DNA from: Strigamia acuminata | Lineage: Eukaryota; Arthropoda; Chilopoda; Geophilomorpha; Linotaeniidae | Direction: 5' to 3' | Length of the DNA stretch: 64,000 nucleotides | Assembly (NCBI GenBank): GCA_949358305.1 | Contig: OX442319.1 | Coordinates: 6,760,001-6,824,000 of the forward strand | Part shown: positions 4,456-45,740 of the stretch, piece by piece | Numbering within the stretch: the stretch's first letter is position 1 | Layout of the letters: each line of letters opens with the position of its first letter | Program-made: the position numbers and the translations under genes | Notes under the pieces: generated by a model | The model's input: only the letters and a program-made list of their open reading frames with translations | Database searches by the model: none | Told to the model about the DNA's origin: nothing

Positions 4456-10686
<6,231 letters not shown>

Positions 10687-17098: not shown

Positions 17099-20000
17099 TT
17101 ACGTTTGGGTAACGTCGCTGTTAGTGACGTCATCCAATCTTATTGTTTGATTGGTTTGAGTATGGCTTGAGGAATTGCTCCTTACGTCATACGGCTGATC
17201 CCTGGATCTCGAGGTTAGCGAGGGGAGAAGACACATGTTGTTTTTTCCTCTCGGTTTACGAGTCCGAAGATTATATCTCTTTGTCGGCGAGGGATTTATT
17301 GTATTTAAATCGCCGTCTTCATTGTCATCGGAGACTGAGTCAGATGAGTCTTTTATTTCAGATGTTTTTTGTTTCTTTTCTAAAAACACCTTTTTATTTA
17401 ATTTTTTAGCAATTTCAAGCTTGTTGAAACTGTCACGAAGTTCAACGTTGTTATTTACGAGGTCTGACTCCATTTGTGGTTTGGATGAATTATCAACAGG
17501 TATTTTCTTTAATTCATCGTCATCTAACGTATTAATTATATTTTCAGTCTTTTGACCGACTTCTTCGCCTTCTAACCATACTTCCTGGTCGAAACTCGGG
17601 AAATACGGAGTTAATTCAGACGAATGGACAGCTGGAAATATTTCGTTATTTTCTAGCTTTCTCAATTCTACGGATCCTCCCTGTAATACTTTGGTTATTA
17701 CATATGGTCCTGTTCTTTTATCAGCGATGCCAGCTGCAATGCCGCGGGCAGCGCTCGACAAAACATGAGAATCTCTCCAAACTAAATCGTTTAATTTAAA
17801 ATTGGAGAACTTCTCACCTTCTTTTTTAAGATTAACTCGTCTACGCAAATCTAATACGTGTGACATCATATGTTGATATGTTTCGGCGATAACGGCTTCT
17901 AATTTTTGCACGTATAAATGTGGGTTTTTTGGATCTACGACCAAAATTCCTTCAGGTATTCTTGGATCCCAAGGTACTCTGAGTTCGCGAAAAAAGTTAA
18001 GAAATGCGGGAGAGAAGTCTCTTCCTCTCGTCACCGTAGTTCTCAAACTAAATGCAAATTCACGCAAATATTCGTCCCATTTGGAATGAACAGATGAATA
18101 AATTGCAACCAAATATTTGATGTCACGGTTAACCCTTTCAACCGGGTTAGCTTGTGGGTGATACGTTGAAGTTGGTGTTGGAACCATCTTGAACTTTTCA
18201 CAAAATTTTTTAAAGACTTGGGCACGAAATTGCGGGCCGTTGTCAGAAATAATTTTACGAGGGAATCCCATGCTCATGGAAAGGTGATAAATGCAATTTG
18301 CCACTTTTCCTGCAGTAGGGTTACACATTGGATATAATTCTGGCCAATGAGTTGCTACGTCAAGTATGACTAAAATATGTGTGTTGTTTTTGCGCGTCCG
18401 AGGTTTCGGGCCGGTCAAATCAACACTTAGACAGTCAAATGGGCTGTAAGGACCCATTTGCGCTGCTTCAATTTGTCCTTTCGTTCGAGGCTTGCAAGCT
18501 TGACAGCGCTCGCAGTGTCGAATGAATCTCGTAATGTCCGATTTCATGCCTTTCCAGGTATAAATTCGGCGTGCTCGATAAAGAGTCCTTGCAATTCCTG
18601 GGTGGCCAGAAAGTGGGTGGCCATGCATCAGCCAAATAATTTTATACTTCAATGTCTGAGGTACAAAAACTTTGAGTGCTCTCCCATCCTCCCCCAATTC
18701 ATCAGACATTGTGGGATGAAATTGCATTAATAAGTCGTCTTCAATTAAGAAGGTGGTTGCGTGTTTTCTATATTGTTTCCTCTGGAGTCGCGTTGTGACG
18801 TCAGGCGGAAATTGATTACAATTTAAAAAATTACGCATCAATTGGCACACTTTATCTTCTTTCTGTGCCTTAATTATGTCTTCCCTTGTGGGAGGTTCAC
18901 AATCAAGACGTTCTACAATTTTGGCGACAAATGCTTTTATTAAAACATTTGACGAAGGAACTTGGAATTTCCTTGAAATTTGCGCTCTTATGACGTCATC
19001 TGATTCCTCAGAGGGGTCATAGATTTTAGTCCAATAGTTGACGAATTCATGATCTTCCTTTTCCTCCAGCGTGGAGACAGGAAGCTCATGAAACTTTCCC
19101 ATTTTCCAATTTCGTTGAGGTGATGGACAGTAAGATAATAATTCGTCATTATCTCCATCATCTTCAGGATTTTCCGGTTTGTCAATCGGTGATCTGGATA
19201 AAGCATCCGCTAAAACATTTAGTGGACCTTTAATGTATTGTATTTCGAAAGAATAGCGCATCAGCTCCATTTGCCAACGCGCTAACCTTCCGGCAGGTTC
19301 GTCTAACTGCATCAACCATTTTAGTGCTTGATGGTCAGTCCTAACTATGAATGTGGTAAATTCCAAATAATGTCGAAATTTACGTAATGCCCAGATTACC
19401 GCTAGGCACTCCAATTCTGTGGCGCTGTAATTTATCTCAGCAGGTTGCAAACTTCTGCTGGCATAAACACAAGGCACTTCGATATTTTGATCATCGATTT
19501 CCCTCATTTGCATAAGCGCGGCGCCTAATCCTTTTCGACTAGCGTCAGTATGCACAATGAATGGTTCTGTCAAATCGGGCATGGCCATTGTTTCTGCATT
19601 TGTTAAAGCATCTTTTATTTGATCAAAAGCTCCTTGATGAATTTCTGACCAAATAAATTCCACATCCTTTTTGAGTAAAGGACGTAGAGGTTCCGTCATG
19701 ACTGCTAGATTCTTGAGTAATCGGTGAAAAAAGTTTACCATTCCCAAAAATCTTTGCAACTCTTTCAAATTTGAAGGAGCTGGCATTTCCTTTATAGCGG
19801 CGACTTTTTTAGGGTCGACACTGACTCCTTGAACACTTAACTTGTAACCAAGAAAAGTTAATTCTTTTCTGCCAAATTTTGATTTTTCTGGATGAACATG
19901 AAGATTTGCATTTTCAAGTTTACTCAGAATTTCTTCCAGATGAATCATGTGTTCTTCAAAATTTTTAGATATAATAATTATATCATCGAGGTATGCCCAT

Positions 20001-21574
20001 GCGAATTTTCGATAGGCGTCACCCAAAATTTTTTCTATCAATTTTTGGAAAGTTGACGGCGCATTTACGAGGCCAAAGGGCATGACTCGAAATTGTAGTC
20101 GACCCAAAGGGCTCCAAAACGCAGTTTTAGCACGGTCGTTCGGATGAACCTCTATCTGCCAATAGCCTTTTGACAAATCTATCGTTGTGACCCATTCAAA
20201 TCTTCCGAGTTCTCGCAAGATTTCCTCAATGCTCGGCATTTGAGGAGGGTCGTATAATGTATGTGCATTGAGTGGTCTAAAATCAATGCAGAGTCTCGGA
20301 TCACAATCCGGACGCATCACTAGAACTATTCGCATTCCATAGTCTCCAGTGGCTTGTTCAACGTATCCATTATCCAACATGTCTTGACAGATTTGACGGA
20401 TAATTTCACGTTTTTGTGGATTTACACTTTTAAACGGAACTCTAATAGGAACTTTAGTGTCCAGTTTAATTTCATGCCTAACGAGGTGTGTTCTACCTGG
20501 TCGGCGTGATAAAATCTTTTCATGTTTCTTTAATACTTTTTCAAGCATTAAATTATTTTCCATTGACAAATTAGCGTCGCTAACAAGTCTTTGTACTATA
20601 TTTTCTTCATTTGCAACTTTAGCTTGACACGCAGTGGCAGAGCCAGCTTTCATGTGATTTGCTTTAATAAAGTCGCGTCTCATGATTTCTTCGGGTGGAT
20701 CAAGGAACTCTTGATAACGATCAAGAATCGCTTGAGGAACAAAAGGTAAATCTTCTTTCAAAGACTTGACAAAATTCCAAGACATGGTCTTAGGATTTGG
20801 TTGAATATTGAGTCGATTCATGAAATCACATCCTAATAAAATAATAGGATATTTATTTCTTAAAATTATGAATGGATGACTTAACATCCCGTGTGTCCAC
20901 GCAAAAGAAAGTAGGAGAGTTCCTTCAGGGACTACATCTTCAGAAGCAGTCGTAACTCTCACATCCGGTCCAATTGGTCGAATTTCATCTTCCAGTTTCA
21001 GCGAAATTACTACGGAGTAGGCCATGAAGCTTCGATTAGCTCCAGAGTCTAACATCCCTGTTATCATACCGTTTGCCGTCTGCAATCGAATCGTCGGCAA
21101 ATCATTGCTGTTTGGTATGTCCGCGTACTTGCACTTAAAACGTCGCGGTGGCTTAATTTCTATCGGCGGATCTAATGGTAATTCGTCCAATAAATCATTA
21201 GTGACTAGCGTTGCAGCCATTAATTTTTCAATACATTCATCAAGACCAGGTAAATCAATTTTATCTGACCTTTCAATGATTTCAGGTGTTGGCCTAGTTT
21301 TTTCATCAAGTAAAGTAACAGCATCTTTTATTTTAGATTCCCAATCAATTTTTATTTGTTGAACTTTTTCTTTAAAAAATTCTTCAGTGATGTTCTCATT
21401 TTGCAGCACAAGCCTTAAATTGGAAACATCAATTTTTGGAAATATTAAATTATTTTCTAATTCTAATTTAATCTGAGTATTTAAAAAATCATCTAAAATT
21501 TGAGATGGTGTTAGTTCATTTTCCGAGGCGGTAGGCGTCGCATCCACTAGACCGTCGGGATGCGCGCTTACAAG
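17099..21574 (-). CDS. pol: Gypsy Pol polyprotein (PR-RT-RNase H-IN), made by -1 frameshift
   Basis: This frame encodes the enzymes that copy and integrate the element. It is open from the gag overlap without an ATG; entry is by -1 frameshifting from gag at AAAAAAC (21574-21580). Numbering from the GTG codon at 21547: retropepsin DSGA with Asp 167; reverse transcriptase with TIDLSKGYWQI near 455 and YLDD at 519-522; RNase H with HTDAS (Asp 668). Integrase then shows a His/Cys zinc site ending HCERCQAC, a core with SVDLTGP and SDNGPQF, and a GPY/F-type segment (KTGPYVI) toward the C-terminus. About 1,491 codons plus stop. The C-terminal 150 residues are charged and unassigned. No disabling mutation is visible. 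Confidence 0.96.
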   Translation of the reverse strand, partial: LVSAHPDGLVDATPTASENELTPSQILDDFLNTQIKLELENNLIFPKIDVSNLRLVLQNENITEEFFKEKVQQIKIDWESKIKDAVTLLDEKTRPTPEIIERSDKIDLPGLDECIEKLMAATLVTNDLLDELPLDPPIEIKPPRRFKCKYADIPNSNDLPTIRLQTANGMITGMLDSGANRSFMAYSVVISLKLEDEIRPIGPDVRVTTASEDVVPEGTLLLSFAWTHGMLSHPFIILRNKYPIILLGCDFMNRLNIQPNPKTMSWNFVKSLKEDLPFVPQAILDRYQEFLDPPEEIMRRDFIKANHMKAGSATACQAKVANEENIVQRLVSDANLSMENNLMLEKVLKKHEKILSRRPGRTHLVRHEIKLDTKVPIRVPFKSVNPQKREIIRQICQDMLDNGYVEQATGDYGMRIVLVMRPDCDPRLCIDFRPLNAHTLYDPPQMPSIEEILRELGRFEWVTTIDLSKGYWQIEVHPNDRAKTAFWSPLGRLQFRVMPFGLVNAPSTFQKLIEKILGDAYRKFAWAYLDDIIIISKNFEEHMIHLEEILSKLENANLHVHPEKSKFGRKELTFLGYKLSVQGVSVDPKKVAAIKEMPAPSNLKELQRFLGMVNFFHRLLKNLAVMTEPLRPLLKKDVEFIWSEIHQGAFDQIKDALTNAETMAMPDLTEPFIVHTDASRKGLGAALMQMREIDDQNIEVPCVYASRSLQPAEINYSATELECLAVIWALRKFRHYLEFTTFIVRTDHQALKWLMQLDEPAGRLARWQMELMRYSFEIQYIKGPLNVLADALSRSPIDKPENPEDDGDNDELLSYCPSPQRNWKMGKFHELPVSTLEEKEDHEFVNYWTKIYDPSEESDDVIRAQISRKFQVPSSNVLIKAFVAKIVERLDCEPPTREDIIKAQKEDKVCQLMRNFLNCNQFPPDVTTRLQRKQYRKHATTFLIEDDLLMQFHPTMSDELGEDGRALKVFVPQTLKYKIIWLMHGHPLSGHPGIARTLYRARRIYTWKGMKSDITRFIRHCERCQACKPRTKGQIEAAQMGPYSPFDCLSVDLTGPKPRTRKNNTHILVILDVATHWPELYPMCNPTAGKVANCIYHLSMSMGFPRKIISDNGPQFRAQVFKKFCEKFKMVPTPTSTYHPQANPVERVNRDIKYLVAIYSSVHSKWDEYLREFAFSLRTTVTRGRDFSPAFLNFFRELRVPWDPRIPEGILVVDPKNPHLYVQKLEAVIAETYQHMMSHVLDLRRRVNLKKEGEKFSNFKLNDLVWRDSHVLSSAARGIAAGIADKRTGPYVITKVLQGGSVELRKLENNEIFPAVHSSELTPYFPSFDQEVWLEGEEVGQKTENIINTLDDDELKKIPVDNSSKPQMESDLVNNNVELRDSFNKLEIAKKLNKKVFLEKKQKTSEIKDSSDSVSDDNEDGDLNTINPSPTKRYNLRTRKPRGKNNMCLLPSLTSRSRDQPYDVRSNSSSHTQTNQTIRLDDVTNSDVTQT

Positions 21575-21580
21575 TTTTTT
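21539..21580 (-). promoter_or_regulatory. Programmed -1 ribosomal frameshift signal at the gag-pol junction
   Basis: On the minus strand the slippery heptamer A AAA AAC (21574-21580) is in register with the gag codons. The gag stop TAA (21570-21568) comes one codon later. After a 9-nt spacer there is a 7-bp perfect stem, CGCATCC (21558-21564) with GGATGCG (21539-21545), enclosing a 12-nt loop. Slipping back one base enters the pol frame, which is open across this point. Confidence 0.88.
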
Positions 21581-24462
21581 AGAAGTTCGCCGATTGATTT
21601 CATCGATTTTTCGAACTCCTCAATAATCTTGTCTTTGCTCGTTTTCCTATCAGGACATTCTTTAGCCCAATGTCCTAATTTTTTGCAAATGTTACACGGG
21701 TCAGTAGCAGGTGATTTTGCGACTTTTGGCGAAGGCGAGCTTGAGCGTTTGGCTTCGTCCTTTTTCGGGGTCGGCGACTTCGATCTACTGAGCGCGTCTG
21801 TCTTTGGTGAACCAAAAGTAACGTTTTTAGGCGCCATCTTTGGTCCAAATTTTCGAGCTACTGCGTTATTACGGGCTAATAAAGCAGCTGCAGCCTCGCT
21901 TTCTGGTTCCGAGTCAGATTTCTCTGGTTCAGAAGCAGCTTCCATATCTGTCACTTCGGCTAAGTGAGCTTTAGGGGTTGGATGTGGATTTTTCCCATCC
22001 GATCCCTTTCTAGATTCCTTAGCAGTCTCTGCCAAAAAATCTCCTCGTTTTGGGGGTTGCAAAAGAGGGGTGTTAGCAAAACGTGTGTCTTTTGCCAACT
22101 CCTTTCTCCGTTGCTGTCGCTTAGCGTACGCAACTTTTTCATCAGCTGGTAGATAAGCTTTATAATTTTCGTCAATCCTTATCTGATTAGCTCGCATAAA
22201 TTTGGCTAATTCAGCGAAACCACCCGGATAAGGTGCTCGTACAGAAAGTAGAACATTTTTTGAGTAATCTGTCAATCCACGACGGAATTGACGATCAATG
22301 GCTGCGTCTCCCATCGTATACGGGAGAGTGACCAATAAATCTTCAGTCCTTCTTAAATAAGAGCGAAGACTTTCGCCTTTATTTTGAGAAAGATTATCCC
22401 ACATTTGTAATAAGTCTTCACTTGACTCTCCATACTCAGTCATGAATTCTTCTACAAAGTGGTTCCAGTTTTGAAATTGTTTAGAATAAAACCATTTCTC
22501 AGCTCGATCTATAAGAGCTTTTGGTACTACTCTTTTCAAAGCAGTGTGACATGCAATGCCATTCAACCTTGAAATTCGTAAAACTTCATCTAAAAGAGTG
22601 GATCCAGCTTCCCATTCTCCATCGAATAAAGCGGGTTTGATGTGATCCCATCTAATAGTTCTTTCATCAACTAGATCGTGAGTCCAGTTGTTGGCAGTAT
22701 ATTGAGCAATTTTCTGTCGTAGTGCAATGTCAGCATTATCGGCAGTAGCGTCAGATCGATCGGAAGATCGACGATCAGCTAATAATCGATCAATTTCTTC
22801 AGCAGTGTAATAATGTGTATTACGCCGTGAAGAGTGGCCTCGATGTCGACGTCGATGAGATCGATGTCGATTATCGCGTTCTTGTTGCGCATTCGCATCA
22901 GAATCCGACCTTGAATCAGATTGTGAATTCAAAGGCGTGTTGAAATGTGGCGTTTCAGGTGGGTCGGGTGGGTCGCCGTCATCGTCTGGCGGTCGACGTC
23001 CACCTCCAGGTGGTCCATCTCCATGTCCATCTGGATTTCCTCCATCTGGTGGATTTCTTCTATACTGACCCCCACCTGGCGGGCTTTCATGTCCGTCGGG
23101 TGGTTCGCGTGCTGGATTCATTTCTCGTCGACTTCTTTTCGACGAATCTTGTTGTTGAGTCAGTGGTATCGTTCGAGCAACGTGAATACCTGTTTCATGC
23201 CGCCTATTTCGATCGTCTACCATCCCCAGCAGTCGGTCACTGTTGTGAAAAATAGGATTTCGATTACCTGGGAGCGGATTGCGATCAGCTCTCCGTTCCT
23301 CGGAATCTGAAGGACGTTTTCTTTTTGAGCGATGGCGGCGACGCGAACGTTGGTCGTCATCACTCGATAATCCAGATTGGCTACTTAACTCTGAAACAAC
23401 GGAAATTGTTATTGTTTCGGGAGTCAAAATAGGGACAGTTGGCGCAGCCATTTCTGGTTGCACCAATTGGTCAGTATAATTCCTTGCTTGCAAACGATCT
23501 TTCATTTCTGCAAGCTCTTCTTGAGCGCGCAACAAATCAGCTCGGAGAATTTCATTCTCATTTATTTGACTTTGCGATTCTTCTGGTTGTAATCGCTTAG
23601 CAGGGTTGCTAGACTTGACTTGTCCGCTCGTACTGGGTTGATCCAGCGAGTGAAAAATCTCGTCTTCACGCTTAGCTATTTTGCTTTCGCGAGTACGCTG
23701 TGTTTTAGCACGTGTGTCTAATTCAGCAGCATATCTCACTAGTTGATTATGATTGCGTTGGTAGTGGTCTGCCAAATCAATCAATTCTTTATTTTTCTGC
23801 TCCAGCTTACTTTTGGTAAGCTCGAGCTGTCTTCGCGCCTCTTGGTGTGAGCGAATTGAAAGTTCATTTCTAGTGTTCATTTTAGAAAGATCTTCCACTT
23901 CACCTTTTAATCGGTATTCTCTAGCTTTTTGGGCTAGAAATTCCTCATTTTGTCGATTGAGTTCCATATGTTGGAGTTCAACCTCCGCTTTTTGTTGTTG
24001 AAGCTCAGCTTCTTTTCGTTCCATTTCAAATTGTAAATTTGAAACGGCACGATCAGTGTGAAGTCGTATCATGGCGCGATGAATCTCTTCCACCGTCATG
24101 TCGTCCGTTATTTGGGCGCCATCTTGGCGTGCTTGATTTCTCAAAGCATCCAACATGGTCATGCGAGGAGGTGATTCGTGAGACGATTCACTTTCCATTT
24201 CACGTAACGTATTTTCCACTTCCTCCAGTGGAAGTGGCGGGAGTTCTTGGTCGTTAGAACTCGCACTTGAAGCGCTTAATGCTCTAGCAACTTCATTTTC
24301 AGCATCCTTAAGTTGTTTCGGATCTGGAACTGGTGTTATTTCTTCAGAAATAATTTTCTCTGTAAGCATTTCAGGCTCGAGAGCCGGCAAAACCGTCGCT
24401 GCTCGTTTCTGAGTGCTTGGTCGACCTCGCTGTCGTTTTACAATTTGCATTGGCGTCGCCAT
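21568..24462 (-). CDS. gag: Gypsy Gag polyprotein
   Basis: This encodes the capsid/nucleocapsid precursor, 964 aa, long for a gypsy Gag. The start is the ATG at 24462, about 70 bp after the primer site. The N-terminal third is Glu/Gln-rich and likely coiled coil (about residues 115-270). A basic SR/KR region and a Pro/Gly-rich tract (near 440-510) follow. A retrotransposon Gag core spans roughly 595-760 (WDHIKPALFDGEW to FMRANQI). One CCHC knuckle, CNICKKLGHWAKEC, lies at 923-936. The ORF ends at the frameshift signal and overlaps the pol frame by a few bases. The antisense ORFs here are shadows. Confidence 0.95.
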   Translation of the reverse strand: MATPMQIVKRQRGRPSTQKRAATVLPALEPEMLTEKIISEEITPVPDPKQLKDAENEVARALSASSASSNDQELPPLPLEEVENTLREMESESSHESPPRMTMLDALRNQARQDGAQITDDMTVEEIHRAMIRLHTDRAVSNLQFEMERKEAELQQQKAEVELQHMELNRQNEEFLAQKAREYRLKGEVEDLSKMNTRNELSIRSHQEARRQLELTKSKLEQKNKELIDLADHYQRNHNQLVRYAAELDTRAKTQRTRESKIAKREDEIFHSLDQPSTSGQVKSSNPAKRLQPEESQSQINENEILRADLLRAQEELAEMKDRLQARNYTDQLVQPEMAAPTVPILTPETITISVVSELSSQSGLSSDDDQRSRRRHRSKRKRPSDSEERRADRNPLPGNRNPIFHNSDRLLGMVDDRNRRHETGIHVARTIPLTQQQDSSKRSRREMNPAREPPDGHESPPGGGQYRRNPPDGGNPDGHGDGPPGGGRRPPDDDGDPPDPPETPHFNTPLNSQSDSRSDSDANAQQERDNRHRSHRRRHRGHSSRRNTHYYTAEEIDRLLADRRSSDRSDATADNADIALRQKIAQYTANNWTHDLVDERTIRWDHIKPALFDGEWEAGSTLLDEVLRISRLNGIACHTALKRVVPKALIDRAEKWFYSKQFQNWNHFVEEFMTEYGESSEDLLQMWDNLSQNKGESLRSYLRRTEDLLVTLPYTMGDAAIDRQFRRGLTDYSKNVLLSVRAPYPGGFAELAKFMRANQIRIDENYKAYLPADEKVAYAKRQQRRKELAKDTRFANTPLLQPPKRGDFLAETAKESRKGSDGKNPHPTPKAHLAEVTDMEAASEPEKSDSEPESEAAAALLARNNAVARKFGPKMAPKNVTFGSPKTDALSRSKSPTPKKDEAKRSSSPSPKVAKSPATDPCNICKKLGHWAKECPDRKTSKDKIIEEFEKSMKSIGELLKNL

Positions 24463-24534
24463 TTTGTCAAATTGAAAAAGAACAATGGAAATAAAGGATT
24501 TTTTCGCAAAAATCGGGTTTTAACAATCAAAACT

Positions 24535-32188: not shown

Positions 32189-32267
32189 AGTAACAGTGAA
32201 TCCGGACAGAACAGCTCGAAAGAACTCGTAATTTCAAAGAAAAGCACCAAGACCAGACAAGGACAAG

Positions 32268-35200
32268 ATGGACGCCCTTGATCGTTTGCGCGCACAGCAA
32301 GAAACAGCCAGATTGGGAGCGGATCGATTGGTAAATACAGTTATCGTCGAATTAGCATTAGCGCAATCAGATGCGATAGTTTTAAGAAAGCTAAAAAACC
32401 AATTAAACGCTAAATCTGAACAATTAAATGATCTCGATGAGAAAGTGTCACCATTCATTGTAACGCGAGCAGACTTACAAAAGGAAGAGGAGGACAATGA
32501 AGAGTATCGAGAGAAAATTATTGATGCGCTTACAGATATCGACATCAAATTAGACGTATTAGCTCCACCAGCGGTAGTTATTAATCCAGGCGCTCCAAAC
32601 AACGGATCGGTCAGCAGTACGAACGATTGGACAGTGAGACTCCCGAAACTCGTAATGAAGAAATTTTCGGGAAACCCAATCGAATGGAGCGATTTTTGGT
32701 CGAATTTCGAGTTGAGTGTAAATGGGAACACTTCCATCACTACCAAAGCTAAGTTTGTGTACTTAAATTCGGTTCTCGAAGGCACAGCAGCGGCTGTGGT
32801 GCGAGGACTAAAGATAAGTGATGAGAATTATGCAGCGGCAGTCACGCTTCTTCAAAATCGTTTTGGAAGAAAGGAGGTGATTGTGAATGCCCATTTGCAG
32901 ATGTTGATGAAGCTTGAGCCAGTCAAGCGACTCAACGACCTCGACAAGCTTAGAAAATTGTACGACACGTGCGAGATGCATGTCCGTAACCTCGAAAATG
33001 AAGGAATAGAAACCACGACGTTTGGCGTTATGTTGTGTCCCTTGTTGCGTGCAGCGATTCCAGACGTGATCGCTTTAGACTTTTCGCGGAAAAACAGTAA
33101 TAATACCCATGACCTTAAGCTATTTTTAGAATTTTGGCGAGAAGAATTAGAAATTCGAGAACAGAACGCAGCCGACAATGCACGATTCGCAACCAAAGAG
33201 GTCGAGAAAAACGTCGCGAAGACGTACGGAGACACCAAGAAGACAACACGTTTCGAGAAACCAGCTTCTTCGAGCGCGTTGATGACCAACACTTCCGATT
33301 CTACTTGTATTTTCTGCAGCGAAACCAGCCACAAGAAGGAAGACTGTCCCTTATCAATTGCAGATCGATTGAAGCGTTGCCAGCAAGCTCGACGTTGCTT
33401 CAAGTGTTTGGCGAACAAACACATGGCCCGAAACTGCCCACAGAAGGAAAAATGCGTACAGTGCGAACGATTTCACCACATATTGTTGTGCGAAGGGCCG
33501 ACAGAAAAAGCAGAGAACGTTTTGGCGTCAACAGTAACTACAGCTAACACTGACATTTTCTTGCAAGTCCTAATGGCCAACGTGGAGTCCAACCACAAGA
33601 CGAAAACGGTGCACTGTTTCTTCGACGGAGGCAGTCACCGGTCGTTCATCAGTTCGAAGTTGGTTAAAGAAATTGGAGCTCAAGTTGTGGGAGAACAACT
33701 TATCAGCATTACTGGTTTTGGTGAAACAGTAGCTAAGCCAGAGAGTCGTCGAAGAGTTAAAATTACATTACGAAACACCCAAATTAATGACAATTCTTTC
33801 GATTTAGAACTCATAGAAGTGCCGTGGATCAGCAATTCCTTAGCAAAACAGTCGGGAGTTCACGTGCGTGAGAAGTTGAAGCAAAATAACATTGTTTTGA
33901 ATATTGATCAGCTTTCAATTCAACCGAACGAAGTGTCAATTTTGATCGGTGCTGACAACTTTTGGCGCATTGTTACCGGCGAGACAAGACGATTAGACGA
34001 AAATCTGATGTGTTTGCATACAGGACTTGGGTGGACGATGCACGGAGCGATTCGAAGTGAGGAAACGATAACCAAACAGCCGACCATTCAGGTGCATCTT
34101 GCGCGTTACGAGGATCGACTGGACAACATGCTGAAACGTTTTTGGGAGTTGGAAGACTTGGGTATTCCACACGAGACTCTTACTGACCATCAAGACGAGG
34201 ACGATCAAGCAGTGACAGCGTTCAAGAAGTCGATTAAATGGACTGGTGACAGATATGAAGTGCGGTTGCCGTGGCTAATGCCGAAAAGTGAACTAGACAG
34301 TAACTATCAAATCGCTTTAAAAAGATTGTGGAATTTAGTCCGAAAATTTAGAAAAGATCCCGAACTTTATTATCGCTATAAGAAAGTTTTGGATGACCAG
34401 ATGGCGGAAGGAATCATTGAGACGGCCCCAGAAGTGTCAGATCAGAGCGGTTGTTACTATTTGCCGCACAGTCCCGTCATACGAGAGCGTCGTAGTACAA
34501 CTAAATTGCGTATCGTGTACGATGCCTCGTCGCACGCGCAAAAAAGCCGCTCGTTGAATGATTGCCTCTTTACTGGGCCAAACTTGTTACCAGAACTAAT
34601 CAATGCATTGTTATTTTTTAGACAGTTAATAGTGGCGTTGATAAGCGACATCAAACAAGCGTTCCACCAGATTTTGCTCCATCTGGACGACAGAGATGCA
34701 GTGCGATTCTTGTGGATTGCCGCTGACTGGGATTTAGTGAGCCCGATTAAGGTGGAGATTCTCCGACAGACTCGAGTTCTGTTTGGGGCGTCTCCAAGCC
34801 CATATTTGCTGAACGGGACCATCCAACATCACTTGGAGAAGTACGCAACAAAGTATGCAGAATTGATCGCGCGACTGTTGAAACGATTCTACGTGGACGA
34901 CTATTTAGACAGTGTCAGCACCGACCAAGAGGCGATCGAAACGTACAAGAAAGTGTCCGAAATAATGTGTGAAGCAAGTATGGATTTGGTTAAATGGAAC
35001 AGTAATTCGAAACTTTTACGTGAACAGTTTAAAATCGATCACCCGGAGACAGAGCTCGAGACTGAAGTTAAAGTGTTAGGGCTGAAATGGAACTGTGAAT
35101 TGGATGAATTGGCACTCGATCTCGAGGAAGTGAAAACGACTCTCGAACGTGAATTAATCACCAAACGACGAGTGATCCAATTAGTGGCCCAAGTTTTTGA

Positions 35201-36234
35201 TCCGTTGGGTTTTGCATCGCCATTTACGGTGACAGGAAAGATGTTTTTCCAACAATTGTGGAAACATAAAATGGAATGGGATGATCGACTTCCGAAAGAA
35301 CTGATACCACAGTGGGAAAACTGGAAGAGTCAATTGCCAGAGTTAGAGCGAGTTCGAGTGCCCAGACATTATGGAATCGATCCAAATGCATCAGAAATTG
35401 AACTTCATTTGTTTTGCGACGCCAGTCCGTTAGCATATGGCATCGTGGCGTACACAAGAGTGCGTCAATGTAATTCACTAATCAATACTTTTTTCGTTCT
35501 CTCTAAATGCAGAATAGCTCCGATAAAAACGTTGACGCTGCCACGACTCGAGTTGATGGGCGCGTTACTTTTGGCACGAGTCGCAGGTCGAATGAAGCAG
35601 TTCACGACTGCGAAGGTCACAGCCTGGACCGACTCCACTATCGTTTTGTGTTGGCTAGGAGAGCGAAAAAAGGCGATTCCGTTCGTCGCACGCCGAGTCG
35701 AGGAGATAAAACAGCACGTGCCGTTTGCAAATTGGCGTCATTGCCCTGGCGTCCAGAATCCTGCCGACCTACTCACACGTGGGATAGATGCAAAATCGTT
35801 ATTGGAGTCCAAGACATGGTGGAACGGCCCCGAGTGGCTCACGATGGATGAACACGAATGGCCAAGTGTTCCGACGACTCAGGCGGACGATTTTGAGATG
35901 GAGTTGGAAGAAACTCTAGCAGCAACAGTCATCGTTCCCCAAACTTGGTTGATAGATGTGCCCACTCGATACGGCAGTTGGAGAAGATTGTTGCGTGTAA
36001 CCAGCTGGGTGAATCGTTTTCTTAACAATTGTAAAAGTGCAGTGCGAGACGGTTCACCATTGACGACAGACGAAATTAACAATTCCGAAAGATACTGGTT
36101 GCAAACAATGCAACAACAGAGTTATTCAAAGGAACTTTTAGCAATTAAAAATCAACAGAGTTTCGAACGAGATTCGATATTACGAAATGTGACGTGTTTC
36201 ATGGACAGCGAACAAACCATGCGATTAAACACGC
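32268..36234 (+). CDS. BEL/Pao Gag-Pol polyprotein, copy B (partial)
   Basis: This polyprotein carries out packaging, protease, reverse transcription and RNase H functions of a BEL/Pao element. The first ATG after the primer site is at 32268, and 1,322 codons are visible. A DUF1759-like Gag core spans about residues 128-275. Three Cys/His knuckles follow (from CIFCSETSHKKEDC to CVQCERFHHILLC, about 348-408). The DUF1758-type aspartic protease has FFDGGSHRS with Asp 453. The Pao reverse transcriptase shows KLRIVYDAS, SDIKQAFHQI and YVDD at 875-878. RNase H has LHLFCDAS with Asp 1051. A segment with HCPGVQNPADLLTRG leads toward integrase. The apparent read-through across the Ns to 36560 is artificial. 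Confidence 0.94.
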
Positions 36235-36434
36235 NNNNNNNNNNNNNNNNNNNNNNNNNNNNNNNNNNNNNNNNNNNNNNNNNNNNNNNNNNNNNNNNNN
36301 NNNNNNNNNNNNNNNNNNNNNNNNNNNNNNNNNNNNNNNNNNNNNNNNNNNNNNNNNNNNNNNNNNNNNNNNNNNNNNNNNNNNNNNNNNNNNNNNNNNN
36401 NNNNNNNNNNNNNNNNNNNNNNNNNNNNNNNNNN
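36235..36434. other. Assembly gap of 200 Ns
   Basis: Exactly 200 Ns, the kind of fixed size used by scaffolding software. It breaks BEL copy B in its pol region and joins it to an unrelated LTR fragment, so adjacency of left and right halves of the window is not proven by sequence. Confidence 0.98.
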
Positions 36435-37330
36435 TGTAGCCTGTCTAGTGAGCTAATTTCAAGCCTTTTTATCTTCCTGCAAGTGATCTCTGTTTACATT
36501 GTCGGCCATTACTGTGGGAGTGGTCTACTTGTATCTGTAAAGAGAGGAGAAAATGTTTAATCCCAAAGAGTTTTTGTGGGTTCTGATTAATAATTAATCA
36601 CTTAATTATTATGCAATGTAAAAGTGTTAAGTTTAAGATTTATCTGTGTTGATTTATAACTTAACTTCTGCACTTACTGTAAAGTTGCCAGCTCATTGGT
36701 CTAAAATGTCTTTACTTATTCTTTTCTCTATTTTATGAGTTGTTCAGTGTGTTTTAGAGTGAATAATTTAGTTCTCAATGAGCATTGTGTTTAGAGACTG
36801 TTGTTAATGTATACTTTTGCATTTAATGTCAAATACTTGCTGTTAGGCTTATGTGTTTTCAACTATTAACTTCTACGGTAGTTTTGTTGTGCCAGCAGTA
36901 CTTATTTCTCTTTACAAGCACTTAGAGACCTCTGTAACTTTAAGTGCAAGTGTCCTTATACAATGTGGAGATAGTTACACTTGTTGTTTCTTATTATTGT
37001 TAAAGTGTGACTTCTTTGTAAAATCCTCGTGATTCAATTGTAGTAGTCTTGTTAAGAATTTAGAGAATAAAATGGTTGCTTTTTATTTCTCTCCAAGTCT
37101 CATTTCTCTATACAACCAGAAAGCAATGTGCAGTGAGTAGAAAAATCCTCCTTCCTCCTCCTTGAACTCACCAGTGGCAGATCATCATGTGAAGCAGCAA
37201 GTTCAATTCCAGTGTTTGCATTTCTTCAAGTCTTTGGCCAACTTCTGTGTATCAGTTTTAGCCAAGCAGCAGTCAAGTATTGCCGCCCCTCCTTCTGGCC
37301 TGGTTGTCGCCTGCGACCTTGCCAGAAACA
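36435..37330 (+). repeat. LTR fragment of the TK-element family (5' side lost in gap)
   Basis: The last 896 bp of an LTR, matching 61365-62260 and 39616-40511 and ending GCCAGAAACA. What follows (37331 onward) is not a primer site, so this is a 3' LTR end or solo LTR. Small variants shared with the 60903 copy (for example GAAAATGTTTAA) make it closer to that copy than to the 39155 element. It interrupts the minus-strand element whose leader resumes at 37331. Confidence 0.85.
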
Positions 37331-39154: not shown

Positions 39155-40511
39155 TGTTGCTAGCAACATAAAGGAAAGCTGCTAAACGTCTTAAAAATTA
39201 GTCATCTGGAATTATTAAAAAGGGTTTTTAATATTTATCTTAGATTGGGAATTTAATTAGACACTTATCTGAATATAAGTCTTCTTTGAGTTAGTTTGAG
39301 TGAATTTCTCAGTACTGGTTGATCTGACCGGATAAATCTGGGAAGAAAAGAGTTTTACATTAGTTATTTTTCCACTTAGAATTTATTTTCTATCTTGTTT
39401 ACCTGTGTTATACATGTTTTGATGTTTCCAAGTGTTTTCCTGTTTCCAGTCCACTACTGTCAATGTAGTGACAAGGTGTAGTGATGCTTTCAGACAGCAA
39501 AAGTGTACTAGAATGAGAAATGTATGTTATTATCAGTTTTAAGCTGTTTCAATCAATTTCTGTGAGTTTTCTGTATATTACTAACCAATTAAGCGTTTTG
39601 TTAACTTAGATTGTGTGTAGCCTGTCTAGTGAGCTAATTTCAAGCCTTTTTATCCTCCTGCAAGTGATCTCTGTTTACATTGTCGGCCATTACTGTGGGA
39701 GTGGTCTACTTGTATCTGTAAAGAGAGGAGATAATGTTTAATCCCAAAGAGTTTTTGTGGGTTCTGATTAATAATTAATCACTTAATTATTATGCAATGT
39801 AAAAGTGTTAAGTTTGAGATTTATCTGTGTTGATTTATAACTTAACTTCTGCACTTACTGTAAAGTTGCCAGCTCATTGGTCTAAAATGTCTTTACTTAT
39901 TCTTTTCTCTATTTTATGAGTTGTTCAGTGTGTTTTAGAGTGAATAATTTAGTTCTCAATGAGCATTGTGTTTAGAGACTGTTGTTAATGTATACTTTTG
40001 CATTTAATGCCAAATACTTGCTGTTAGGCTTATGTGTTTTCAACTATTAACTTCTACGGTAGTTTTGTTGTGCCAGCAGTACTTATTTCTCTTTACAAGC
40101 ACTTAGAGACCTCTGTAACTTTAAGTGCAAGTGTCCTTATACAATGTGGAGATAGTTACACTTGTTGTTTCTTATTATTGTTAAAGTGTGACTTCTTTGT
40201 AAAATCCTCGTGATTCAATTGTAGTAGTCTTGTTAAGAATTTAGAGAATAAAATGGTTGCTTTTTATTTCTCTCCAAGTCTCATTTCTCTATACAACCAG
40301 AAAGCAATGTGCAGTGAGTAGAAAAATCCTCCTTCCTCCTCCTTGAACTCACCAGTGGCAGATCATCATGTGAAGCAGCAAGTTCAAGTCCAGTGTTTGC
40401 ATTTCTTCAAGTCTTTGGCCAACTTCTGTGTATCAATTTTAGCCAAGCAGCAGTCAAGTATTGCCGCCCCTCCTTCTGGCCTGGTTGTCGCCTGCGACCT
40501 TGCCAGAAACA
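39155..40511 (+). repeat. 5' LTR of the TK element
   Basis: 1,357 bp starting with the perfect palindrome TGTTGCTAGCAACA and ending GCCAGAAACA. AATAAA at 40247-40252. A GTGAGTAG splice-donor-like motif follows near 40314, then a CTCCTTCCTCCTCC tract. The 60-codon ORF near its 3' end has no independent support. Confidence 0.95.
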
Positions 40512-40514
40512 ATT

Positions 40515-40532
40515 TGGTGCCGTGACCAGGAT
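40515..40532 (+). other. Primer binding site of the TK element
   Basis: TGGTGCCGTGACCAGGAT, three bases after the 5' LTR. Confidence 0.75.
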
Positions 40533-41330
40533 TTCTTCCAGTTATCTCAGTGGACCTTCATGTGTGCTGCAAAATTCATCAGTGGGTTTTGTTCTCAAGC
40601 TGTGCAAAGCTTTTATGTGTAAAGTGCCATTGAAGCTGTGCCACTACAGTGAAGTGTATGCTCTCGTCAGCCTTTCACAGGCAAAAAAGTGGGTTTTTCA
40701 AGTTGGATTCTCAAATTGTCAAGATGGTCAAGATGTTTTTCAACTTGGATCAAGCAAGGCTTCGAGAGTACGAGCGATCCTGCACGACAATCAATTCCAA
40801 ACACAACGCAATGTACATCCTACAAGAAGATTTGAAGAAATAATTATTAAGAATTATTATTTAAATAGAATAATATCCGAATTTGCTGCTGTAATTATTT
40901 CAAAAAGAGTTTTTGATTAGAAACTGGTGTAGTTGGGGGGAGAAGAAGTTTAAGTCTTAACCATTTGATAAAATTCTCGATTCCAGTTTGTGGAATTTAG
41001 AGAATATCCAGTGAATTAGTGAATAATACTAAGCTTTAGTGTTGGTATCCCAATTTAAAACGAGTATCTAGTCAGAAACTCAATTGTGAAAATAAGAGAA
41101 TTGTCAATTACCTTTAATTATTGAATTTTGGGGGTTAATTTGCCAATCCTGTTAACATCCCGTGTGTTTCAATCCTGTTAACAGCTTGTGGATATCCATC
41201 CCGTTTTTGTGTGTTCAGTAAATCCTAGAGTGTAAAAGAATTAGACAATTTCTTGTTAACCAATTTAGTCAGTTAAGTTGAGTTTGAATCCTGAACTGAT
41301 CCTTGAATTCTTCATTTCTCGGTGAGGATT
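40533..41330 (+). other. Leader between primer site and ORF of the TK element
   Basis: About 800 bp, nearly identical in the copy at 62284-63081. It is AT-rich with several upstream ATGs and a short ORF that overlaps the LTR end (to 40920). I see no recognised coding domain. It probably holds packaging signals. Confidence 0.6.
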
Positions 41331-44300
41331 ATGGCTACATTATCCGCTGCTGATCTCGAGGAAAAGGAGGTCATTTGGAAAGCAAAGGCTCAAGGAGCCG
41401 AGGATCTGCTGGGATCTTCAGTCAACATTCTAGACGGAGGAGAGCTGGAAGCCATGCAAATAACGGTTGACCAGCAATTGAGTGATCTCGCCGACGAATT
41501 GAAAGCTCTTAAAGACGAGTCAAAAAGAGAGGACTATTTAGCGGGGCTTCAACGAATTGAAGACATTAGAACCAGAGTAAATTTATTGAAGCAAAGAGCA
41601 AAAGTGTCTGGAAAAATGGCAGGGCAATTTGGTTCCCATCCGGGACAGAATTCCAGTTTAAACCAGACGTCCGCTTCATCTAGGAGAAACACGAGATTGC
41701 CGAAAACCGACATTGCCAAATTTAGTGGCGATGCAACTGAATATAGAGGCTTTGCGAATTTATTCGAATCAGCAGTTGATCAGAACACGGAGCTTTCGAA
41801 CGTGGAAAAGCTTATATATCTGAGGTCATGCTGCACTGGGGCTGCAGAATCCGCAATCAAGTCGTACCCAATAACTGATGACGCCTACCCATTAGCGAAA
41901 AATACATTGGAGAGTCTATTCGGTTCTGAAAACACGCAGAGAAATGCTATTTCAAAGATGATTAGGGAGTCGAAACCCGTTTTCGATCTCTACCCAATCG
42001 AGCCACTCAAAGCTCTATTCACGTCATTGGCATCTGCTGTCCGGACCATGGCGCAACTGTCTGTGTCAGTTGACACTACTGGAACGTACCTTATTCCAGA
42101 ACTACTTAGAAAATTTCCACCGGAGATCTCCCAACGTTTTTACCGAAAGCATCAAGGAAAAGTTGATGATGTTAACGTTTTTCTGGACTTCGTAGCAACC
42201 GAGATACAACTGGCTGAATTGTCGGAAGAAAGCGTTCTCCTTAAGCGCGCTCATCTGAAGAAGTCAGAAAAATTTGAGAAAACTTCAAAGGAAACAAGAG
42301 AAAGACCAACTGGAACCATGTCCTCATTCGTGACTTCCGAGAATGGAAAATTGAGTATGAATTCCAAGTCAAATCCAAACCGCAAACCCGCCTGCGCTTA
42401 TTGTGATGGTGATCACGCACACGCAAATTGTGATGCGGATCTCGATGTACCAGCGAGGATCGAAATAGTGAAGAAGAAACGACTTTGTTTCAACTGCTTG
42501 AGATATAACCACACAGCCAAAGAATGTACCGTGAAGTTTTGTTGTCGCTTGTGTGGTGGAAGACATCACACATCGATCTGCAACAAAAACAACAAAGAAA
42601 AAGCGATTACACCAAAAGAAGAAAACGTGTCTACTAATGTATCGCTTACCGAGTCGGTGGAGATTCAACTGATGGTCTTCACTGCTCTTTTTGTGAAGAA
42701 AAATGGAGACATGTACCCCGTCCGCGGATTATTAGATCCAGGAAGCCATCGCTCCTACGTCACGAAGAGACTAGTAAATAAATTCCGGATGCAAAAGATC
42801 GAGACACTACACACGATGACACAGTGTCTGCTCAACAAAAAGCCAGTTCCGACGACACATGATGTCTTTAGATTCGAACTACAATCAAGACACGGAACAA
42901 AAAAGACATCAATCCTTGCATTAGAAACCGACACACTCCCGAAAGTCAAAGGGATAATTGGAGCAGAAGCCATAAAGCAAGTCCAATCACTCGGACTTGA
43001 GATGGCTGAGATACATCCGTCAGAATCGGAAGACATTGACGTCTTATTAGGAAGCAACGCATGGTGGAAGATTTGTCAAGGTGGAAGCCGAAAAATCAAC
43101 GACGAGTTGGGATTAATGGAGACAATTTTTGGGTGGATTCTAAACGGTCGACTGAAACCAAACAACCCGCTTGAAGAAAACATGGCAGCGTGCAACATTT
43201 CTTGCATGGCGGTCGAGTCCAAAGAAGAAGTGATCTCAAATCAACCTGAAAATGACGAAAACAAAATAGTCCAATTAATTCCGAAATCACTGCCCAACAT
43301 GAATGGCGAACCCGGTGTGAATAAACAGACAGACGTCACACCTTCTTGTTTTGCCGCGAGCCTCTCCAGTGGTCTGGAGAAAGAGGAACTGGACACCACC
43401 CTCCAAAAAACGAAAAAGTCGTTTAAGGATGGAGGATTGGTCAACAGAACTCCAAGCTCGGACATGAAGCCGGAATTACGAGGGCGAAATCAGTTAGAGT
43501 CAGGGAGAAAGAACGTCGAATTACTTACAAACCAAGTGCCCAGTTTACCCAAATTGTGTGCAATCGTGAGATGGAGTGGAAACGTGATTCTGAATTTCTG
43601 GAAAAAGAAAATTGATTTGTCAACCAATCAAAAGGGAATTCATCTCATCATTGGTCCAATGTATGCGGGAAAAACGACCAAGTTATTGAAGCTTTTAGAA
43701 AAGGAAGAGAAGACGTCGTCCCTGCTAATTAAACACTCCAATGACGATCGTTACAGTAAAACCGAAGTCGTGACCCACGACGGTCATCGACGAGAAGCAA
43801 TTGCTACCAGTAGCCTAACCAATGCTGTGGAAAAAACGAAATTAGTGAAGACAATCAGAATTGACGAAGGACAGTTTTTTCCCGACATTTTTACTTTTTC
43901 AAATGAAATGGCTGAGCAAAAGAAAAAGGTAATAGTCGCCGCATTAGACGTCGACTTCAAGAGGAAGCCATTTGATCAGATATCCGAGTTAGTTCCACTA
44001 GCCGAGTCTGTTGTGAAACTACAAGCAAAATGTTATTTTTGCGGAGATAAAGCTGAATTTTCAAGACGAATTTCGCACGAAACCAGAGTCAAGATGATAG
44101 GAGGGATCGACAAATACAAACCAACCTGTCGAGTATGTTTCTCAAAGCCCATGAAGTCTCTAGAGACGAAAAGGAAAATCATCAACGGAATTATTCGACT
44201 TAGTTGTATGATTGTCAACCGAAGAATACCTCCGTGGATACCAAATTTGATCCGTCAAAGAATCATGCCACCCAGAGTGAAATACAAAAAGGTGAAAGAA

Positions 44301-44348
44301 GTCTCCCAAATATTATCATCAAAGACCAGAAGTAATCAAACTAAATGA
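41331..44348 (+). CDS. Gag-protease-thymidine kinase fusion protein
   Basis: 1,005 aa from the ATG at 41331. A coiled N-terminus precedes a BEL Gag core (FSGDATEYRGF near 127). Cys/His knuckles start at C355, C386 and C404. A DUF1758-like protease has LLDPGSHRS with Asp 469 and ends about 605. A low-complexity linker spans about 607-768, then a type II thymidine kinase about 769-940. The kinase has P-loop GPMYAGKTT (775-783), IDEGQFFPD (Asp 845, Glu 846 the expected catalytic base), DFKRKPF, LVPLAESVVKL, and zinc cysteines 901, 904, 933 and 936. A basic 65-residue tail follows. TK1-family enzymes phosphorylate thymidine to dTMP using ATP. The fusion is in frame without stops. That it raises dTTP for reverse transcription is inference; source (host TK1 or a DNA virus) is undecided. 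Confidence 0.93.
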   Translation: MATLSAADLEEKEVIWKAKAQGAEDLLGSSVNILDGGELEAMQITVDQQLSDLADELKALKDESKREDYLAGLQRIEDIRTRVNLLKQRAKVSGKMAGQFGSHPGQNSSLNQTSASSRRNTRLPKTDIAKFSGDATEYRGFANLFESAVDQNTELSNVEKLIYLRSCCTGAAESAIKSYPITDDAYPLAKNTLESLFGSENTQRNAISKMIRESKPVFDLYPIEPLKALFTSLASAVRTMAQLSVSVDTTGTYLIPELLRKFPPEISQRFYRKHQGKVDDVNVFLDFVATEIQLAELSEESVLLKRAHLKKSEKFEKTSKETRERPTGTMSSFVTSENGKLSMNSKSNPNRKPACAYCDGDHAHANCDADLDVPARIEIVKKKRLCFNCLRYNHTAKECTVKFCCRLCGGRHHTSICNKNNKEKAITPKEENVSTNVSLTESVEIQLMVFTALFVKKNGDMYPVRGLLDPGSHRSYVTKRLVNKFRMQKIETLHTMTQCLLNKKPVPTTHDVFRFELQSRHGTKKTSILALETDTLPKVKGIIGAEAIKQVQSLGLEMAEIHPSESEDIDVLLGSNAWWKICQGGSRKINDELGLMETIFGWILNGRLKPNNPLEENMAACNISCMAVESKEEVISNQPENDENKIVQLIPKSLPNMNGEPGVNKQTDVTPSCFAASLSSGLEKEELDTTLQKTKKSFKDGGLVNRTPSSDMKPELRGRNQLESGRKNVELLTNQVPSLPKLCAIVRWSGNVILNFWKKKIDLSTNQKGIHLIIGPMYAGKTTKLLKLLEKEEKTSSLLIKHSNDDRYSKTEVVTHDGHRREAIATSSLTNAVEKTKLVKTIRIDEGQFFPDIFTFSNEMAEQKKKVIVAALDVDFKRKPFDQISELVPLAESVVKLQAKCYFCGDKAEFSRRISHETRVKMIGGIDKYKPTCRVCFSKPMKSLETKRKIINGIIRLSCMIVNRRIPPWIPNLIRQRIMPPRVKYKKVKEVSQILSSKTRSNQTK

Positions 44349-44383
44349 TGGGTTGTTCGCACTTTCTTTTCGCCGGCAATCTA

Positions 44384-45740
44384 TGTTGCTAGCAACATAA
44401 AGGAAAGCTGCTAAACGTCTTAAAAATTAGTCATCTGGAATTATTAAAAAGGGTTTTTAATATTTATCTTAGATTGGGAATTTAATTAGACACTTATCTG
44501 AATATAAGTCTTCTTTGAGTTAGTTTGAGTGAATTTCTCAGTACTGGTTGATCTGACCGGATAAATCTGGGAAGAAAAGAGTTTTACATTAGTTATTTTT
44601 CCACTTAGAATTTATTTTCTATCTTGTTTACCTGTGTTATACATGTTTTGATGTTTCCAAGTGTTTTCCTGTTTCCAGTCCACTACTGTCAATGTAGTGA
44701 CAAGGTGTAGTGATGCTTTCAGACAGCAAAAGTGTACTAGAATGAGAAATGTATGTTATTATCAGTTTTAAGCTGTTTCAATCAATTTCTGTGAGTTTTC
44801 TGTATATTACTAACCAATTAAGCGTTTTGTTAACTTAGATTGTGTGTAGCCTGTCTAGTGAGCTAATTTCAAGCCTTTTTATCCTCCTGCAAGTGATCTC
44901 TGTTTACATTGTCGGCCATTACTGTGGGAGTGGTCTACTTGTATCTGTAAAGAGAGGAGATAATGTTTAATCCCAAAGAGTTTTTGTGGGTTCTGATTAA
45001 TAATTAATCACTTAATTATTATGCAATGTAAAAGTGTTAAGTTTGAGATTTATCTGTGTTGATTTATAACTTAACTTCTGCACTTACTGTAAAGTTGCCA
45101 GCTCATTGGTCTAAAATGTCTTTACTTATTCTTTTCTCTATTTTATGAGTTGTTCAGTGTGTTTTAGAGTGAATAATTTAGTTCTCAATGAGCATTGTGT
45201 TTAGAGACTGTTGTTAATGTATACTTTTGCATTTAATGCCAAATACTTGCTGTTAGGCTTATGTGTTTTCAACTATTAACTTCTACGGTAGTTTTGTTGT
45301 GCCAGCAGTACTTATTTCTCTTTACAAGCACTTAGAGACCTCTGTAACTTTAAGTGCAAGTGTCCTTATACAATGTGGAGATAGTTACACTTGTTGTTTC
45401 TTATTATTGTTAAAGTGTGACTTCTTTGTAAAATCCTCGTGATTCAATTGTAGTAGTCTTGTTAAGAATTTAGAGAATAAAATGGTTGCTTTTTATTTCT
45501 CTCCAAGTCTCATTTCTCTATACAACCAGAAAGCAATGTGCAGTGAGTAGAAAAATCCTCCTTCCTCCTCCTTGAACTCACCAGTGGCAGATCATCATGT
45601 GAAGCAGCAAGTTCAAGTCCAGTGTTTGCATTTCTTCAAGTCTTTGGCCAACTTCTGTGTATCAATTTTAGCCAAGCAGCAGTCAAGTATTGCCGCCCCT
45701 CCTTCTGGCCTGGTTGTCGCCTGCGACCTTGCCAGAAACA
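44384..45740 (+). repeat. 3' LTR of the TK element
   Basis: Same length and sequence as 39155-40511 as far as I could compare. The right end is fixed by GTTAC at 45741-45745 and resumption of the satellite. Confidence 0.95.

Follow-up and report, generated by a model that had tools for sequence, protein, structure and literature searches.

Why should a thymidine kinase (TK) be encoded in one reading frame with the Gag protein of a retrotransposon? This question is raised by a stretch of 64,000 nucleotides (the window) on chromosome 6 of the Strigamia acuminata assembly, in which a long terminal repeat (LTR) element contains a single unbroken open reading frame (ORF) that encodes, in order, a BEL-type Gag, a protease-like domain and a TK of the TK1 type (Table 1). 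An earlier note on this DNA had described an LTR retrotransposon with such an uninterrupted frame, joining Gag and its knuckles to the kinase; the frame is indeed single, with matches to DUF1759 (2e-17) and TK (8.4e-54), and the 1357-bp LTR pair and the GTTAC duplication confirm the nature of the element. The element belongs to a recently mobile Gag-TK lineage without pol, in which TK, accompanied by a linker and a short tail, occupies the place of pol and is under selection. Beyond what had been noted, the present analysis revealed that the element has neither reverse transcriptase (RT) nor integrase, that Gag-TK elements form two diverged families, that a relative has lost TK, and that further solo TK ORFs exist in the genome.

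The Pfam TK profile (PF00265) matched residues 770–937 of the fusion ORF with an E value of 8.4e-54 and 182.5 bits, the cut-off being 20.6, so that the comparison with the TK family proposed in the earlier note gave a significant match and a chance resemblance was rejected. When residues 769–1005 were compared with PDB sequences, each of the 18 distinct matches at ≤1e-3 was named a thymidine kinase, the top match being human TK1 (2wvj, 2.2e-41). The P-loop G-K-T, DEGQFF and four cysteines were invariant across 11 aligned TKs (seven Gag-TK and four solo TKs), and the cysteine pairs of the putative zinc site read CYFC at residue 901 and CRVC at residue 933 in the fusion ORF; we take the glutamate of DEGQFF to be catalytic and the four cysteines to form the zinc site. 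Judged by profile, motifs and PDB match, the C-terminal domain is a TK1-type thymidine kinase. The pattern search of the fusion ORF placed the starts of the CCHC-like knuckles at residues 355, 386 and 405. The protease motif reported earlier stands only in part: a protease-like domain is present, but its match to DUF1758 (BEL protease) reached 13.7 bits, under the Pfam cut-off of 22, and its motif reads D-P-G instead of D-T/S-G. The DUF1758 match was below the cut-off in families A, B and D described below, and likewise in the gag-pol BEL of the same window.

The element was inserted into an array of an approximately 140-bp satellite, which lies on both sides of it. Between the LTRs, no frame for RT, RNase H or integrase was found, the next longest frame on either strand having 200 aa, and no pol domain was matched by Pfam in the fusion ORF; lacking RT and integrase, the element is thus non-autonomous. 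The stop codon of the fusion ORF and the 3′ LTR are 35 bp apart, and a pyrimidine-rich stretch (44349–44383) with the same ending precedes the 3′ LTR in families A, B (L009) and D (L035), with no plain purine tract. Recent mobility is indicated by LTR pairs that are 100% identical in the window copy and L009 and 99.93% identical in L010. The 5-bp duplication GTTAC flanks the window element on both sides, and target duplications of 4 bp were read by eye in other copies (ACAG in L009, CCTT in L010). L010 is a second family A copy, the 5′ LTR of which starts at position 60903 of the window and which is cut by the window end at 64000. L011 consists of two tandem family A copies, with a 4361-bp direct repeat (99.1%) containing LTR and gag.

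Table 1. Features of the family A Gag-TK element, in window coordinates
Feature	Position	Strand	Extent	Basis or remark
Whole LTR element, family A copy	39155..45740	+	6586 bp	Self-BLAST LTR pair; TGTT...AACA ends; GTTAC on both flanks
5′ LTR	39155..40511	+	1357 bp	100% identity to 3′ LTR
Leader	40512..41330	+	819 bp	Primer-binding site TGGTGCCGTGACCAGGAT, three bases inside 5′ LTR end
Gag/protease-like/linker/TK/tail fusion ORF	41331..44348 (41331..44345, then stop TGA)	+	1005 aa from ATG	ORF translation and Pfam
BEL Gag domain DUF1759	41721..42146	+	Residues 131–272	Pfam E 2e-17
Three CCHC-like knuckles	42393..42581	+	Residues 355–417	Sequence pattern; Pfam zf-CCHC E 0.14 only
Protease-like domain	42651..43160	+	Residues 441–610	DPGSHRS motif at 469; sub-threshold DUF1758; A vs B 65% identity
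Fast-evolving linker	43161..43634	+	Residues 611–768	A vs B 28–30% identity; within-family dN/dS 0.38–0.60
TK1-type thymidine kinase domain	43635..44150	+	Residues 769–940	Pfam 8.4e-54; human TK1 2.2e-41
C-terminal tail	44151..44345	+	Residues 941–1005	About 32–40 residues common to A, B and D
3′ LTR	44384..45740	+	1357 bp	Preceded by CGGCAATCT

The genome was searched with the PF00265 profile, and the best 150 of 205 candidates were scored and sorted by profile range and frame length, giving 51 matches of family A, to which the window copy belongs, 41 of family B and 58 solo TKs. The genome-wide search for Gag-TK copies thus yielded at least 92 rows, 84 of them (47 A and 37 B) in full-length frames of 1013, 1009, 995 or 1002 aa; seven others had a shorter frame and one an internal TGA. 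A count from the Gag side, in which the best 150 of 1028 candidates were classed by their identity and the range that they matched, gave 55 matches of family A (47 in full frames), 43 of family B (37 in full frames) and 25 of a third family, D (19 with an 892-aa frame), a tally that excludes 27 further rows with 42–48% identity, some in frames of 1742–2105 aa. A longer Gag-protease query found A copies, plus B copies at 58%, among the best 69 of 1314 candidates. Most sites of these three families are found on chromosome 6 at 6.8–7.6 Mb, on chromosome 4 at 12–15.5 Mb, at the end of chromosome 1 and at the start of chromosome 7, and also on the Y chromosome at 7.9–10.3 Mb and on further contigs. 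In the published genome report, C12 is assigned as the X and C13 as the Y chromosome (PMC10556566); among the scored Gag matches, this region of C13 accounted for 13 of the 55 A, 7 of the 43 B and 11 of the 25 D. On the mitochondrial contig of the same genome, with genes named by eye from their translations, the arrangement is cox1-cox2-cox3-nad6-nad2, then nad5-nad4-nad4L on the opposite strand, then atp6-cob-nad3, with nad1 reversed, which agrees with the gene order described as unique to Strigamia maritima (PMC4368715).

The possibility that the junction of a BEL Gag with a host TK gene is an assembly error or chimera draws on its oddness and nothing more, and its probability is negligible in view of the 47 A and 37 B full-length frames, which were counted from both the TK and the Gag sides on several chromosomes and contigs. 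A single bad assembly join, named in the earlier note as a refutation, is not upheld, since as many as 84 full-length frames in the one assembly contain the junction. With such repeated frames in an assembly reported at 98-fold HiFi coverage and a quality value of 59.6 (PMC10556566), the chimera was rejected.

Family B, represented by L009, is 6182 bp long, with LTRs of 965 bp at 100% identity, the same layout as A and a Pfam TK match of 4e-55. DUF1759 matched the Gag of all three families (A, 2e-17; B, 4.8e-15; D, 2.4e-19). Between the window copy and L009, identity was 57% in Gag, 65% in the protease-like domain, 28% in the linker, 56% in TK and 51% in the tail. The KEN motif, which human TK1 presumably carries as a degradation box, was absent from the A and B ORFs.

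The ratio of nonsynonymous to synonymous substitution rates (dN/dS) was obtained from Nei–Gojobori counts, and segments were compared by Fisher tests on rounded counts. In TK, dN/dS was 0.18 and 0.17 in the A pairs window/L011 and window/L023, respectively, and 0.12 in the B pair L009/L013, whereas in the linker it was 0.55, 0.60 and 0.38, respectively; the pair L011/L023, both members of which also occur in the A pairs, gave 0.18 for TK and 0.58 for the linker. The ratio was 0 (window/L011) and 0.10 (L009/L013) in Gag and 0.14 and 0.08, respectively, in the protease-like domain. TK and linker differed with p values of 0.053 (window/L011), 0.002 (window/L023) and 0.0003 (L009/L013), the first pair thus not being significant by itself, and no difference between TK and Gag was seen in the B pair (p 0.49). 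The near-identical pairs window/L010 and L009/L012 contained too few changes to judge, and no A–B ratio is given because synonymous sites are near or at saturation between the families. TK is thus under purifying selection, and the linker relaxed, in three within-family pairs. The intronless TK1-type kinase joined in frame to a BEL Gag, as claimed earlier, is therefore not only present but selected, and selection appears to have preserved an intact TK during family spread.

These ratios bear on the explanation that TK is a chance passenger moved by the mobility of Gag and LTRs. LTR elements can capture transcripts, and family D lost its TK; however, the 56% identity between A and B was held while synonymous sites came near or to saturation. 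We consider a passenger very improbable and rejected it on the TK dN/dS of 0.12–0.18 beside a relaxed linker.

Family D (L035) is a pol-less relative with a frame that has a similar Gag, the DPGSHRS motif and a linker, followed at the place of TK by a shrunken stretch beginning IQSIKGPMFLGKKEKLLELL and then by the tail of A and B. No TK was matched by Pfam in this stretch at E 1. Without the tail, the stretch scored 18.3 bits against a profile of the 11 TKs, the top of 2000 shuffles being 5.3, and a second D copy aligned with A residues 746–805 at 8.7e-6. By BLASTP alone, the remnant was weak (0.056) and the tail strong, with 1e-9 over 32 residues between A and D and 2e-6 between B and D. The D LTRs, of at least 602 bp, are 100% identical, indicating that D was recently mobile; its 3′ LTR starts with TGTTGCTAGCAACA, as in A, after the same motif that precedes the 3′ LTR in A and B, and short pieces resemble the A LTR. 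The Gag-protease of D shares 50% and 48% identity with two gag-pol BELs but 45% with A and 44% with B, a relation under which D may instead have gained the remnant and the tail through recombination; an A+B+D grouping in the Gag tree was not rejected (p-AU, the approximately unbiased test, 0.321).

The retention of the tail without the TK core in D suggests that part of the C-terminal extension has a role without catalysis, and it leads to the explanation that TK is kept non-catalytically, with its oligomeric fold or nucleotide binding aiding Gag assembly, RNA binding or localisation. The fusion to Gag, behind a protease-like domain with DPG, fits such a role as well. However, the aligned A and B TKs do not vary in the P-loop, DEGQFF or any of the four cysteines despite 56% identity between the families, a constraint needless for a pure scaffold, and we regard this explanation as unlikely.

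How the fusion arose was approached through trees of its two halves. In the Gag-protease tree, A and B were placed together with support of 96/100 (ten rows) and 100/100 (eight rows); in the TK tree, in which human and Leishmania TKs were the only outgroups and no further arthropod TK was included, a branch with support of 97/96 separated the A and B TKs, seven in all, from the solo TKs and both outgroups. The agreement of the two trees fits, and the sequences are consistent with, one acquisition of TK before A and B diverged. It is plausible that TK was captured from a cellular cDNA, the donor of which could be a host gene, a solo TK repeat or something else. As read by eye from an alignment, the protease end of the gag-pol BEL L036 is followed by NVSCLSIEDPMEKLW and directly by RT, and A reads NISCMAVESK and then departs from L036, suggesting that the exchange point was at that site. 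Beyond the point of departure, L036 showed RVT_1 at 23.3 bits (cut-off 29.6), the Pao peptidase domain (1.2e-39) and an integrase zinc-binding domain (1.2e-9). Families A, B and D read DPG in the protease motif; L037 and L038, the two gag-pol BELs whose Gags are most similar (48% in the Gag domain), read DTG, L039 reads DPA and the BEL of the window reads DGG. The latter, a gag-pol BEL element at 32232–36560 on the + strand, is partly N in sequence and has a Peptidase_A17 match of 2.7e-49.

TK is carried elsewhere in this genome without Gag. In a second TK search, in which the best 150 of 199 candidates were scored and which, like the PF00265 search, filled with repeat copies, at least 73 further intronless TK ORFs were found in other dispersed repeats. 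They are of three kinds, with 55 rows of 190 aa (C190; loci L025, L026 and L027), 13 of about 216–269 aa (C216; L020, L024 and L028) and five of 221–239 aa (C221; L015 and L016) among the matches listed. Two C216 loci aligned over 9.9 kb at 99.1%; for two C190 loci the alignment extends over 5.8 kb (99.7%), with additional pieces that are rearranged. Between C190 and C216, TK identity is 76% and dN/dS 0.15, and the loci compared align only over about 520 bp of TK. No gag was recognised in the solo-TK loci read, and none of ten of their ORFs scanned exceeded a Pfam cut-off; the C-terminal tail of Gag-TK was not seen in the aligned solo TKs. The P-loop of the solo copy L024, which is outside the 11-TK alignment, reads GPMFAEK. 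Such abundance suggests that carrying TK may pay generally, and so gives some weight to the idea that the enzyme is directed at the host or at rival elements, for example through shifts in the pool of deoxythymidine triphosphate (dTTP), rather than at the element's own DNA synthesis. The fusion to Gag, however, better suits a role local to the particle, and we consider this target quite unlikely.

We therefore turn to a scenario to which we give a little under an even chance, namely that the element represents a non-autonomous, satellite-like, BEL-derived LTR lineage that relies on a helper polymerase and carries TK in its particles, raising dTTP. An autonomous BEL element would provide RT and integrase in trans, and the Gag fusion would bring TK into the particle at Gag stoichiometry. 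There, TK would phosphorylate thymidine, as is predicted from its sequence, and cellular kinases would then act, so that local dTTP would rise during reverse transcription in cells with low TK1 of their own; the earlier note had suggested such a supply for non-dividing cells, which it may provide. A BEL helper is supported by one primer-binding site common to the window element and L040, a chromosome 2 BEL with an open gag-pol frame, in which the 18 nt are identical to a stretch upstream of gag. The site presumably matches the 3′ end of tRNA-His. A fuller version, in which a long-lived pol-less satellite borrows the RT and integrase of a BEL element and repays with a capsid-welded enzyme that feeds that polymerase dTTP, is in our judgement doubtful.

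Several observations weigh against the helper-and-particle scenario. The window copy reads RIDEGQ where others read GIDEGQ, a change from glycine to arginine beside DEGQ that is also present in L046, and the window's score was equalled by four more rows. The predicted structure of the TK part was poor, with a mean pLDDT (predicted local distance difference test) of 57.8, and was not used for fold searches. With a DPG protease motif, TK may stay attached to Gag. Family D has been mobile with a TK remnant only, indicating that TK is dispensable in at least one relative. The pattern of the primer-binding site was looked for next to a second gag-pol BEL (L041) and next to D (L042) and found in neither place, and the region reads TGGTACCG in other A and B copies. 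Nor was a helper with the same LTR ends detected among the listed occurrences of the LTR-junction pattern CGGCAATCTNTGTTNCNAGCAACA, including three of the 14 unexplained ones that were read. This pattern occurs 126 times in the genome (reversed control, 0), and the 100 junctions listed carry an A, B or D variant. The unexplained junctions are the 14 of these 100 without a scored TK or D Gag match within 4 kb; the three read proved to be an A TK, a D and a decayed B tail, and one of the 14, on C7, has a B-like Gag match.

The search for a helper was also made from other parts of the element. No helper sharing the leader was found, the best 40 of 58 leader matches all being 98–100% identical to the query. 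The parts of three gag-pol BELs that were read, which covered their LTR starts and 3′ ends in part, did not contain the LTR-start pattern.

Compared with autonomous BEL/Pao elements, the element is alike in its DUF1759 Gag, knuckles, protease-like domain, LTR layout and 5-bp target duplication and has the primer-binding stretch in common with one gag-pol BEL of the same genome, whereas the autonomous elements have RT and integrase where this element has TK. Its kinase resembles other TK1-type kinases in profile, P-loop, DEGQFF and four-cysteine site, and differs in forming the C-terminal part of a Gag fusion and in having a tail that the aligned solo TKs lack. The TR-GAG elements of plants, which we take to be non-autonomous LTR elements with gag and without pol, are similar in this respect but belong to plant lineages, and the abstract-level descriptions of them mention no captured enzyme. 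Elements bearing dUTPase have been reported among LTR retrotransposons of bdelloid rotifers, where the enzyme sits between protease and RT (PMC5408684), and of fungi (PMC2864245), the latter report citing the assumption that dUTPase permits replication in non-dividing cells. As described in these reports, such elements also build a thymidine-nucleotide enzyme into the polyprotein, but the enzyme is dUTPase rather than TK and pol is kept. In searches of the open-access literature naming TK with retrotransposon or BEL, judged in part by the openings of abstracts, no description of a TK-bearing retrotransposon was found.

dUTPase is carried by retroviruses and by a small number of LTR retrotransposons, and it is an open question whether nucleotide supply limits retroelements outside S phase. 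In the present case, a salvage kinase was taken up at the place of the polymerase, kept by selection in two diverged families and dropped by a relative, so that A and B on the one hand and D on the other offer a natural comparison with and without TK inside one animal genome. Furthermore, an LTR lineage that has no pol and yet retains a Gag of its own and a selected enzyme bears on satellite–helper evolution among mobile elements. Elsewhere in the window, a Gypsy-like element, recognised by eye from its translation, is present at 17099–24519 on the − strand, and a long low-complexity repeat array at 6493–10326 is open in several frames on both strands.

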